Source of the DNA: Curvibacter sp. PAE-UM
GTDB lineage: Bacteria; Pseudomonadota; Gammaproteobacteria; Burkholderiales; Burkholderiaceae_C
Direction: 5' to 3'
Length of the DNA stretch: 64,000 bases
Assembly (NCBI RefSeq): GCF_001432305.1
Contig: NZ_KQ483358.1
Span: forward strand, 1,482,430-1,546,429
Position 1 is the first letter of the stretch, and the number at the start of each line of letters is the position of its first letter. A program made the position numbers and the translations under genes. Below are positions 57,959-59,943 of this stretch, one piece after another. The notes beneath the pieces are model-generated. The model had not been told where the DNA came from. It ran no database searches and worked only from the letters and a program-made list of their open reading frames with translations.

Positions 57959-58336
57959 TCAGGCGAACCGTGGCCAGAGATGGGGGCCGAAGACCAGCAG
58001 CCCGATGACCAGGGCCCCGATGGCGGCGATCAGCACGGCGGCCGCGGCCACGTCCTTGGCCTGCAGGATCAGGGGGTGGAATTCCTGCGTGACGGCATCG
58101 GCCAGGAACTCCAGCGCGGTGTTGAGGGCCTCGGCCATCCAGACCAGCGTCATGGCCAGCACCAGCCAGCACCATTCGGCCAGGCTCAGCCCGAAGTACA
58201 GGCCGGCGCCGGTCACCAGCACCGTGGCAGCGGCATGGAGCCACGCGTTGTGCTGGGTCAGCAGCAGGGTGCGCAGGCCGGCCAGCGCATAACGAAAGCT
58301 GTGCAGGCGCGCGGTGAAGCTGAAGGGCTGGTGCAT
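57959..58336 (-). CDS. dgkA: Diacylglycerol kinase
   Basis: The 125-residue integral membrane kinase recycles diacylglycerol, released by envelope glycan modification, to phosphatidate. Three transmembrane helices are visible. The active-site block ALNTALEFLADAV has the catalytic Glu, and AKDVAAAAVLIAAIGALVIG is the conserved C-terminal signature. The start lies 20 bp from a perfect SOS box, which could repress this gene as well as the divergent radical SAM gene. In E. coli dgkA lies beside lexA, a suggestive parallel. Confidence 0.93.
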   Translation of the reverse strand: MHQPFSFTARLHSFRYALAGLRTLLLTQHNAWLHAAATVLVTGAGLYFGLSLAEWCWLVLAMTLVWMAEALNTALEFLADAVTQEFHPLILQAKDVAAAAVLIAAIGALVIGLLVFGPHLWPRFA

Positions 58337-58355
58337 GGGGTGGGATCGTTCTATA

Positions 58356-58371
58356 CTGTATTTATGTACAG
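58356..58371. promoter_or_regulatory. Perfect LexA (SOS) box
   Basis: CTGT-N8-ACAG occurs at 58356-58371 with an AT-rich core (ATTTATGT), matching the LexA consensus of gamma- and betaproteobacteria. It lies in an AT-rich 145-bp gap between dgkA and the radical SAM gene, overlapping a TATACT -10-like box (58352-58357). LexA binding is inferred from this match. Confidence 0.75.
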
Positions 58372-58481
58372 TTATGTTTCAGGGCATGTTCTGACGCTAC
58401 GGTCCGTCACTCTAACGAGCCGGTGGACGGGCCCGCTCGGGACTTACCCGCGCGGGCGCGGGCCGCAGGGCAGGCCGGACC

Positions 58482-59570
58482 ATGGGTGACTTCAAGATCC
58501 CCCTGCAGACCCTCAAGGGGCGGGGTGCGGCCACGCGCAACGCGCATCGCTTCGAGACGGATGCCCGCGCAGCGTTTGACGATGGCTGGTCGACCTGGGA
58601 CGAGGCCTTGTCGGGGGAGGCGCCGAAACTGCAGACGGAAGTCCGCTGGGAGGATGCGCGCAGCGCGCTGGTCAGCAACGACTCGCCCGACATCGCCTTC
58701 GACCAGTCCATCAACCCCTACCGCGGTTGCGAGCATGGCTGCAGCTACTGTTACGCCCGGCCCACGCACAGTTACCTGGGCCTGTCGCCGGGGCTGGATT
58801 TCGAGCGCGTGATCATCGCCAAGCGCGGTCTGGCCGAACTGTTGCGGCAGGAACTTTCGGCCAGGGCCTACCAGCCCAGCATGATCGTCATCGGTTCGGT
58901 CACCGATGCCTACCAGCCGGTGGAGCGCGAGTTGAAGATCACGCGCTCGCTCATCGAGGTGCTGCGCGACACGCGCCACCCCTTCTCGCTGGTCACCAAG
59001 TCCAGCGGCGTGGAGCGTGATCTGGACCTGATCGCGCCCATGGCGCAAGAGCATCTGGCGGCGGTGTACGTGACCATCACCACGCTGGACGGCGAACTCG
59101 CACGCCAGCTGGAGCCGCGCGCCGCCTCGCCGCAGCGCCGCCTGCGCACCATTCGCGCCCTGGCCGAGGCCGGCGTGCCGGTGGGTGTGAGCGTGGCGCC
59201 GCAGATCCCCTTCATCAACGAAGACATGGAGCAGGTGCTGGAGGCGGCTGCAGCGGCGGGCGCCCAAAGCGCCTTCTACACCGTGCTGCGCCTGCCCTGG
59301 GAACTCAACGAGGTGTTCCAGCAGTGGCTCAGCCTTCACTACCCGCAGCGCGCGGCGCGCGTGATGGCGCGCATCCAGGAGATGCGCGGCGGCAAGGACT
59401 ACGACAGCAACTACGCCACGCGCATGAAAGGCAGCGGCCTGTGGGCCGACCTGATACGCCAGCGTTTCCACAAGGCCTGCGCCCGCCACGGCCTGAACCG
59501 CGGGCGCGTGGAACTCGACCTCTCCTTGTTCCGCCCGGGGCTGGCGCGCGGGCAGGGCAGCCTGTTCTAG
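58482..59570 (+). CDS. SplB/PA0069-family radical SAM protein
   Basis: This 362-residue protein has a radical SAM cluster-binding motif CEHGCSYCYARP near residue 82, preceded by SINPYRGC. It belongs to the family related to spore photoproduct lyase (COG1533) that is widespread and uncharacterised. A further conserved block, GSVTDAYQPVERELKITRS, follows near 140, then HPFSLVTKSSGVERDLDL. The extreme C-terminus QGSLF resembles the QxSLF/QLxLF motif by which repair proteins bind the beta sliding clamp. An SOS box lies ~110 bp upstream, so a role in DNA damage response is plausible. Confidence 0.88.
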   Translation: MGDFKIPLQTLKGRGAATRNAHRFETDARAAFDDGWSTWDEALSGEAPKLQTEVRWEDARSALVSNDSPDIAFDQSINPYRGCEHGCSYCYARPTHSYLGLSPGLDFERVIIAKRGLAELLRQELSARAYQPSMIVIGSVTDAYQPVERELKITRSLIEVLRDTRHPFSLVTKSSGVERDLDLIAPMAQEHLAAVYVTITTLDGELARQLEPRAASPQRRLRTIRALAEAGVPVGVSVAPQIPFINEDMEQVLEAAAAAGAQSAFYTVLRLPWELNEVFQQWLSLHYPQRAARVMARIQEMRGGKDYDSNYATRMKGSGLWADLIRQRFHKACARHGLNRGRVELDLSLFRPGLARGQGSLF

Positions 59571-59586
59571 GCGCCTGCCTTACGCC

Positions 59587-59943
59587 TTACTTCTGCACCG
59601 GCTCGATGGTCAGCACCGTGTAGGCGCCCTTGATCTGGTCGGCGGTGAAGCGCACGGTGTCGCCGGCCTTGACCTTGTCCAGCAAGGCGGGGTCCTGGAC
59701 CTGGAACACCATGGTCATCGGTCCCATGTCGAGGTTGGGGATCTCGCCGTGCCTGAGGGTGATCTTCTTCGCCGACTTGTCCACCGTGCGCACGACGGCT
59801 TCGACCTGGGGCCGTGCGGCCGCAGCCGCCTGGGCGACCTGGACCGGGGCGGCATGGCTGTCATGGCTGGCGCCATGGTTGTGGGCCAGGGCGGAGCCAG
59901 CCAGCGTCAGCAGGGTGGCGAGCAGGGCAGTGGTTTTTTTCAT
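59587..59943 (-). CDS. CusF-like periplasmic copper-binding protein
   Basis: The 118-residue protein has a signal peptide and a His-rich linker (AHNHGASHDSHA), followed by a CusF OB-fold domain. Metal site residues occur in LRHGEIPNLDMGPMTMVFQV: the His and two Met ligands are present, but the Trp of E. coli CusF (position 44) is replaced by Met. It would shuttle Cu(I)/Ag(I) in the periplasm. It is the last gene of the copper operon, 28 bp after the DUF411 gene. Confidence 0.9.
   Translation of the reverse strand: MKKTTALLATLLTLAGSALAHNHGASHDSHAAPVQVAQAAAAARPQVEAVVRTVDKSAKKITLRHGEIPNLDMGPMTMVFQVQDPALLDKVKAGDTVRFTADQIKGAYTVLTIEPVQK

Follow-up and report, generated by a model that had tools for sequence, protein, structure and literature searches.

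A PA0069-family radical SAM gene of Curvibacter sp. PAE-UM with a LexA-type box and a conserved clamp-binding-type C-terminal peptide

Rv2578c is a LexA target, and PA0069 is reportedly among the genes listed by Cirz 2006. SOS control of splB has already been described. In the available excerpts of the literature, it was predicted for splB genes of alpha- and betaproteobacteria in 2012 (PMC3323433) and has been reported, in other groups too, for SplB-like or radical SAM genes in PMC8565304, PMC7739468, PMC9380542, and PMC3765255; for SOS-regulated splB, the excerpt of PMC8565304 refers to Cirz 2006 (Pseudomonas aeruginosa), to a 2016 paper on Verrucomicrobia, and to PMC7739468. The radical SAM gene vnz_31145 of Streptomyces venezuelae is given as a LexA target upregulated 19.97-fold with mitomycin C (PMC9380542, in part). 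A Streptomyces gene of the Rv2578c family was inactivated without a clear fitness cost, and its link to repair was termed speculative in the available part of that study (PMC12924846, 2026), a finding that makes a major role less likely in the conditions of that study. In a preliminary description of the present locus, the DNA-repair role was called undescribed, which has to be corrected: SOS control of splB is in print (PMC3323433, PMC8565304, and PMC9380542, as excerpted), while the clamp-binding-type tail appears to be new.

The nearest idea found to a link between this family and the clamp comes from archaea, in which SplB-like genes are located beside nreB and crosslink repair has been speculated upon; in the excerpt of that paper (PMC4929162), a possible PCNA-binding motif belongs to the neighboring protein, whereas here the clamp-type motif is on the enzyme. 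Literature connecting the PA0069 family, or its C-terminal peptide, with the clamp was not found among the open-licence papers covered. The beta-clamp clients Pol II, Pol IV, Pol V, MutS, and Pol III alpha likewise carry a Qxx[LM][FL] peptide at or close to an end of the chain, and the SOS polymerases likewise have a LexA box, as does the gene at 58482–59570; none of these clients, however, is a radical SAM protein, and the present protein is a predicted client. The canonical clamp motif is QL[S/D]LF; as revised, it reads Q-phi-x-[L/M]-[F/L] or Q-phi-x-[L/M]-x-[F/L], where phi stands for L, I, V, or A, and QADMF is named as a motif of Pol III (PMC13254535, in the part available).

The window, the whole stretch of DNA analyzed here, comprises 64,000 nt of Curvibacter sp. 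PAE-UM, and all positions are given in its coordinates (Table 1). With moderate confidence, we interpret the product of the radical SAM gene as an enzyme of DNA repair that is induced in the SOS response and recruited by the clamp. LexA would repress the gene via the box at 58356–58371, and damage would lead to LexA cleavage and production of the enzyme. The short flexible C-terminal tail would then insert QGSLF in the clamp's hydrophobic pocket, in the manner of Pol III alpha, MutS, and the polymerases of the SOS response, and the beta clamp would take the enzyme to damaged replication sites. There, a barrel similar to that of spore photoproduct lyase (SPL), together with the 5'-deoxyadenosyl radical, would reverse a covalent base lesion (for instance a dimer or a crosslink) on clamp-loaded DNA. 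Of this picture, the sequences themselves show the conserved LexA-type boxes, the conserved tail, and the radical SAM motif, and the SPL-like fold is predicted, whereas repression by LexA in Curvibacter, binding to the clamp, and a DNA lesion as substrate are inferred.

Table 1. Features of the radical SAM locus in window coordinates.
Feature	Position	Strand	Evidence or remark
Divergent diacylglycerol-kinase gene (dgkA), shares upstream region	57959..58336	-	PF01219; probably outside the conserved unit
LexA-type box CTGTATTTATGTACAG, palindromic	58356..58371		Sole perfect CTGTN8ACAG of the window; conservation
PA0069-family radical SAM protein, 362 aa	58482..59570	+	NF033668, 456.1 bits (cut-off 360); PF04055
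N-terminal segment, residues 12–36 (KGRGA...DDGW), conserved, poorly predicted in the model	58515..58589	+	
Radical SAM cluster motif C83-x3-C87-x2-C90	58728..58751	+	Sole invariant cysteines in 75 aligned sequences
Linker, residues 351–357	59532..59552	+	Variable length; pLDDT 64 for residues 351–360
Clamp-binding-type C-terminal peptide QGSLF	59553..59567	+	Conservation in homologues; neighboring-ORF control

The open reading frame opens with ATG, and its stop codon, TAG, directly follows the QGSLF codons. The encoded protein is a full-length member of the PA0069 family (NF033668 rSAM_PA0069, "SplB-like", model name "hypoth_equivalog"): the profile search covered positions 1–348 of 348 at a score above the family cut-off. 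A perfect CTGT-N8-ACAG box ahead of a SplB/PA0069-like radical SAM gene whose product ends in QGSLF had been pointed out in the preliminary description, and each of these points was borne out; the start given there, 58356, marks the box and not the gene, whose reading frame begins at 58482. The CxxxCxxC motif of the radical SAM cluster is present. The AlphaFold model of the protein had a mean pLDDT of 78.6 and a pTM of 0.81, with pLDDT below 50 for residues 1–48. Residues G13, R14, G15, R23, D33, D34, G35, and W36 of the N-terminal segment were kept in 71–74 of the 75 aligned sequences; as a guess, this segment might serve as a DNA arm. Neither a sigma-70 promoter nor an intrinsic terminator was found within 58250–59700.

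Homologues were taken from three overlapping sets. In the host-family set (same taxonomic family, 200 genomes searched), 143 genomes had a match; the set drew 140 loci from 139 of them and left out partial or split matches of G057, G136, G101, and G031 as well as extra pieces in G016. The phylum set consisted of 89 loci, 30 top-scoring and 59 hand-picked for family spread, out of 172 matching genomes among the 398 searched, and the named set was the best 80 of at least 595 relatives. Together, these 309 loci yielded 304 distinct proteins; alignment-based residue counts refer to 75 sequences. Ten records of phage homologues were retrieved, none of which covered 80% of the query.

The predicted model has an SPL-like fold: its six best matches among solved structures were all SPL (PDB 4fhc and others), with E values from 4.8e-9 to 2.8e-8 and TM scores of 0.48–0.56, which upholds the relation to photoproduct lyase suggested earlier. 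SPL is the nearest solved fold for the modeled protein (TM about 0.5), having the CxxxCxxC cluster in common with it, but SPL is without a clamp-type tail, whereas the PA0069-family protein has one. The catalytic cysteine of SPL beyond the cluster is Cys140 of the solved enzyme; a fourth invariant cysteine as its counterpart was not found in the 75 sequences. Together with a score of only 21.8 bits against the cut-off of 400 for the SPL family (TIGR04070), this rules out a true spore photoproduct lyase. The chemistry of the enzyme may be related to that of SPL but is not that of SPL as known.

The same missing cysteine fits an alternative that we regard as rather unlikely, namely that the protein is clamp-bound and SOS-induced but takes no part in repair, either acting at the fork to modify a nucleotide or another protein, or competing for the clamp pocket and thereby modulating polymerase exchange. 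The evidence from the tail and the box, presented below, suits this alternative equally well, and SkfB and viperin, radical SAM enzymes acting on a peptide or a nucleotide, were among the structure matches. However, the six best of these matches are to a DNA-lesion enzyme, and a purely competitive role disagrees with the invariance of all the catalytic-core residues of the cluster. For the repair enzyme preferred here, a DNA lesion is the likely substrate.

A clamp-type peptide of the form Qxx[LM][FLI] or QxxLx[FLVI] was found in the last 40 residues of 302 of the 304 distinct homologues, so that the C-terminal motif seen in the window protein is close to universal among them. With L or M accepted at position 4, the tails were assigned to QxxLF (261 proteins), QxxLL (34), QxxLI (3), and the six-residue form QxxLx[FLVI] (4). 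Two proteins were tail-less: L095, cut by a contig end, and L138, out of frame. Qxx[LM][FL] was the exact C-terminus in 261 of the distinct proteins and, in the control comparison, in 262 of 305 radical SAM proteins, which was the case for none of the 2083 flanking ORFs (at least 80 residues long, spurious ORFs and ORFs cut at locus ends included). Within the last 5, 8, 12, and 25 residues, the motif occurred in 262, 288, 294, and 295 of 305 radical SAM proteins and in 0, 3, 5, and 13 of the 2083 neighboring ORFs, respectively; a tail arising by chance was rejected on this control (262/305 vs 0/2083 at the exact end). The linker from the last invariant core residue (the equivalent of F350) to the Q of the motif varied from 6 to 29 residues in the 75 sequences, and in the model pLDDT fell from the linker value in Table 1, which holds up to residue 360, to 56 for residues 361–362. 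This combination, a short invariant peptide that follows a poorly predicted linker of variable length, is what one sees in docking motifs.

The preliminary description had placed QGSLF close to QLSLF/QxxLF, which is correct for the Q, [L/M], and [F/L] positions of the clamp motif, present as QxxLF or QxxLL in 295 of the 304 homologues, but not for position 2, where Gly departs from the L, I, V, or A of the published consensus. Among these 295 five-residue motifs, the residues at position 2 included G (109), L (77), M (31), and A (30), with L, I, V, and A together making up 111. Those at position 3 included S (116), E (44), and D (36); in these 196 motifs, position 3 is as in the published QL[S/D]LF (PMC13254535, in part). 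Textbook tails also occurred among the homologues: QLSLF in 26, QLDLF in 10, and QLSLL in 12.

Known and presumed clients in the same genome were compared. Pol III alpha has QGGLF at an aligned internal position, which we take to be its clamp site from the alignment and from the known site of E. coli. The same QGGLF was present in all eight host-family genomes read; across 54 genomes, with the Pol III alpha frame chosen by similarity, all 54 had F at position 5, 42 had Q at position 1, and 12 had QGGLF, these eight included. Across the 54 genomes, the residue at position 2 of the tail was not seen to co-vary with its counterpart in the Pol III alpha motif. MutS of Curvibacter contains QVDLF 45 residues from its end, and a terminal motif of the Qxx[LM][FL] form was not found in the DinB frame read from the same genome.

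That the tail is not meant for the clamp, but packs on the protein's own core or binds another partner, with its likeness to clamp peptides being coincidental, would explain the Gly at position 2 in the window protein and in 109 of 295 homologues. We find this improbable in view of the variable linker, the low model confidence of the tail, the agreement of the five- and six-residue variants with the published range of clamp motifs (PMC13254535, as excerpted), the QGGLF of Pol III alpha in the same genome, and the retention of the peptide by a sister family past the end of its family model. We judge binding of the QGSLF protein to the clamp to be very likely.

The box CTGTATTTATGTACAG lies in the context TACTGTATTTATGTACAGTT, and 110 bp separate it from the start codon of the radical SAM gene. 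With up to one mismatch allowed, 13 CTGTN8ACAG sites were counted in the 64,000 bases, fewer than the mean of 22.8 in shuffled sequence, and the genome as a whole contained 19 perfect sites compared with 7 for a reversed-pattern control. A lone perfect site is therefore weak proof, and the case is carried by conservation. In the region from -450 to +60 of the aligned start, perfect CTGTN8ACAG boxes were present in 107 of 140 host-family loci, 25 of 89 phylum loci, and 37 of the 80 named loci (the best 80 of at least 595). In controls of equal length, they numbered 1, 0, and 0 inside the gene and 0, 0, and 0 downstream for the same three sets. Of these 169 perfect boxes, 87 extended to TA-CTGTN8ACAG-TA, the spacer was on average 89% A+T, and half of the boxes started 29–64 bases ahead of the aligned start. 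Of the host-family loci deviating from the perfect box, 24 had a single mismatch, which gave CTGG-N8-ACAG in 14 cases, and 9 had neither form. The two checks in homologues suggested in the preliminary description, for the C-terminal motif and for the upstream box, were thus both passed, with class-specific boxes taking the place of CTGTN8ACAG elsewhere.

The site GTTCN7GTTC is recognized by alphaproteobacterial LexA, and CTGTN8ACAG by LexA of beta- and gammaproteobacteria. GTTCN7GTTC or GAACN7GAAC was found upstream in 1 of 140 host-family loci, 47 of 89 phylum loci, and 17 of the 80 named loci (the best 80 of at least 595); the controls gave 0, 0, and 0 inside the gene and 3, 1, and 0 downstream. 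Shuffled upstream regions contained CTGTN8ACAG in 42 and the GTTC/GAAC patterns in 75 of 6180 cases. Among the best 80 of at least 595 relatives, the named loci with GTTC sites were mostly labeled as alphaproteobacterial (Bradyrhizobium, Hyphomonas, Methylocapsa, Microvirga, Thalassospira, and others). The class of the box hence switches with the class of the host, deduced for genomes outside the named set, which indicates that control of the gene by LexA persists through changes in the LexA site. The same argument was made for splB in 2012 (PMC3323433, in the part available).

Some loci had neither a box nor a near-box: 9 of 140 in the host family, 16 of 88 distinct loci in the phylum set, and 20 of the named 80 (the best of at least 595). 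All eight Xanthomonadales-type loci among the named 80 (L280, L285, L286, L293, L295, L298, L300, and L301; best 80 of at least 595 relatives) kept the tail, and a recognizable LexA site was not found upstream of the gene. The Xanthomonas-type LexA site is TTAGN6TACTA; with one mismatch allowed, it was matched at a single locus of the best 80 of at least 595 (L305), which also has a GTTC box. The box-less loci, the Xanthomonadales-type ones included, speak against a strict coupling of the gene to LexA. On the evidence of the conserved boxes, LexA (SOS) control of the radical SAM gene is nonetheless almost certain.

Some other boxes in the Curvibacter genome look, from their neighbors, like those of real SOS targets, such as one at a gene for an S24 peptidase near a Y-family polymerase (box at G000:C1:1378599, polymerase at 1379072). 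Another perfect LexA-type box covers the start of a tyrosine recombinase gene (L177, G000:C1:1644191; PF00589, PF13495), which looks like an integron integrase, and two more lie near genes that, from their Pfam domains, we read as RadA-like and YifB/ComM-like (L171, G000:C1:561852, and L172, G000:C1:587822).

In the window, the box is closer to the ATG of the divergent dgkA (19 bp) than to that of the radical SAM gene, yet control of dgkA by the box, with the radical SAM gene only incidentally nearby, is scarcely credible and was rejected, since dgkA adjoins the gene in 1 of 309 loci, that of the window itself, and most host-family loci have a box ahead of the radical SAM gene, half of the 169 perfect boxes lying at the short distance given above. 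The conserved target of regulation is thus the radical SAM gene, and dgkA may have been brought under SOS control in this genome only. A conserved neighborhood was likewise rejected: the largest neighbor cluster was found in 13 of 81 neighborhoods (the best 80 of at least 595 named relatives plus the window), and none of the window's neighbors belonged to the 25 largest clusters of these 81. A match to RNase HII was obtained in 47 of the 309 loci; in 45 of them, the gene was located downstream on the same strand, at varying distance, namely among L141–L169, L224, L225, L231, L234, L242, and L296–L324 (PF01351 in the copy of L315), and all but a few of these loci had a GTTC box. A DNA methylase gene followed in seven loci (PF01555 in the L296 copy). 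Such DNA-metabolism neighbors fit a role in DNA and prove nothing.

The actinobacterial Rv2578c family (NF038135) is a sister family with the same type of tail, to which the window protein itself does not belong (204.7 bits, cut-off 430). All four of its proteins read ended in a clamp-type peptide: QESLF, QEPLF, QLRLL, and QLTLL. Three of the four showed 30–37% identity to the window protein, and the three scored against NF038135 all passed. In the Tsukamurella protein, the NF038135 match stopped 33 residues before the C-terminus, so that the motif is retained although it lies outside the family model. GAACN4GTTC was present shortly upstream in two of the four relatives. The tail motif was not found in six distant homologues, those of Paenibacillus, Bacteroides (mobile pair B), Runella, Monoglobus, Haloarcula, and Natribaculum, nor in the neighboring radical SAM protein of the Haloarcula record; for the two haloarchaeal homologues, its absence is expected, as their hosts use PCNA. 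A Gemmatimonadota protein ends in QLSLGI, possibly the six-residue form of the motif. The gene of the tail-less relative on a Runella slithyformis plasmid (L331) overlaps a gene for a UvrD-type helicase, another repair-like setting.

The interpretation as a clamp-recruited, SOS-induced repair enzyme draws on the conservation of the tail, its variable and low-confidence linker, S, E, or D at position 3, and the QGGLF of the genome's own Pol III alpha; the replacement of LexA sites, the actinobacterial tails, SPL as the top structure match, and RNase HII downstream point in the same direction. Gly at position 2, the lack of tracking with Pol III alpha, the box-less loci, the SPL catalytic cysteine without an invariant counterpart, and the Streptomyces inactivation report, as far as excerpted (PMC12924846), weigh against it.

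Radical SAM genes of the SplB-like type are a recurrent component of SOS regulons. A clamp-type tail that is near-universal would link the PA0069 family physically to replication and repair. Tentatively, and with somewhat less than even confidence, we propose a widespread, unrecognized branch of the SOS response in Pseudomonadota (PA0069 family) and Actinomycetota (Rv2578c family), in which clamp-riding radical SAM enzymes would act at forks or gaps and reverse a DNA lesion, perhaps a crosslink, that is not the spore photoproduct. We know of no earlier radical SAM client of the sliding clamp; this protein would be the first, and, if the proposal is true, a radical enzyme would join the list of clamp clients.
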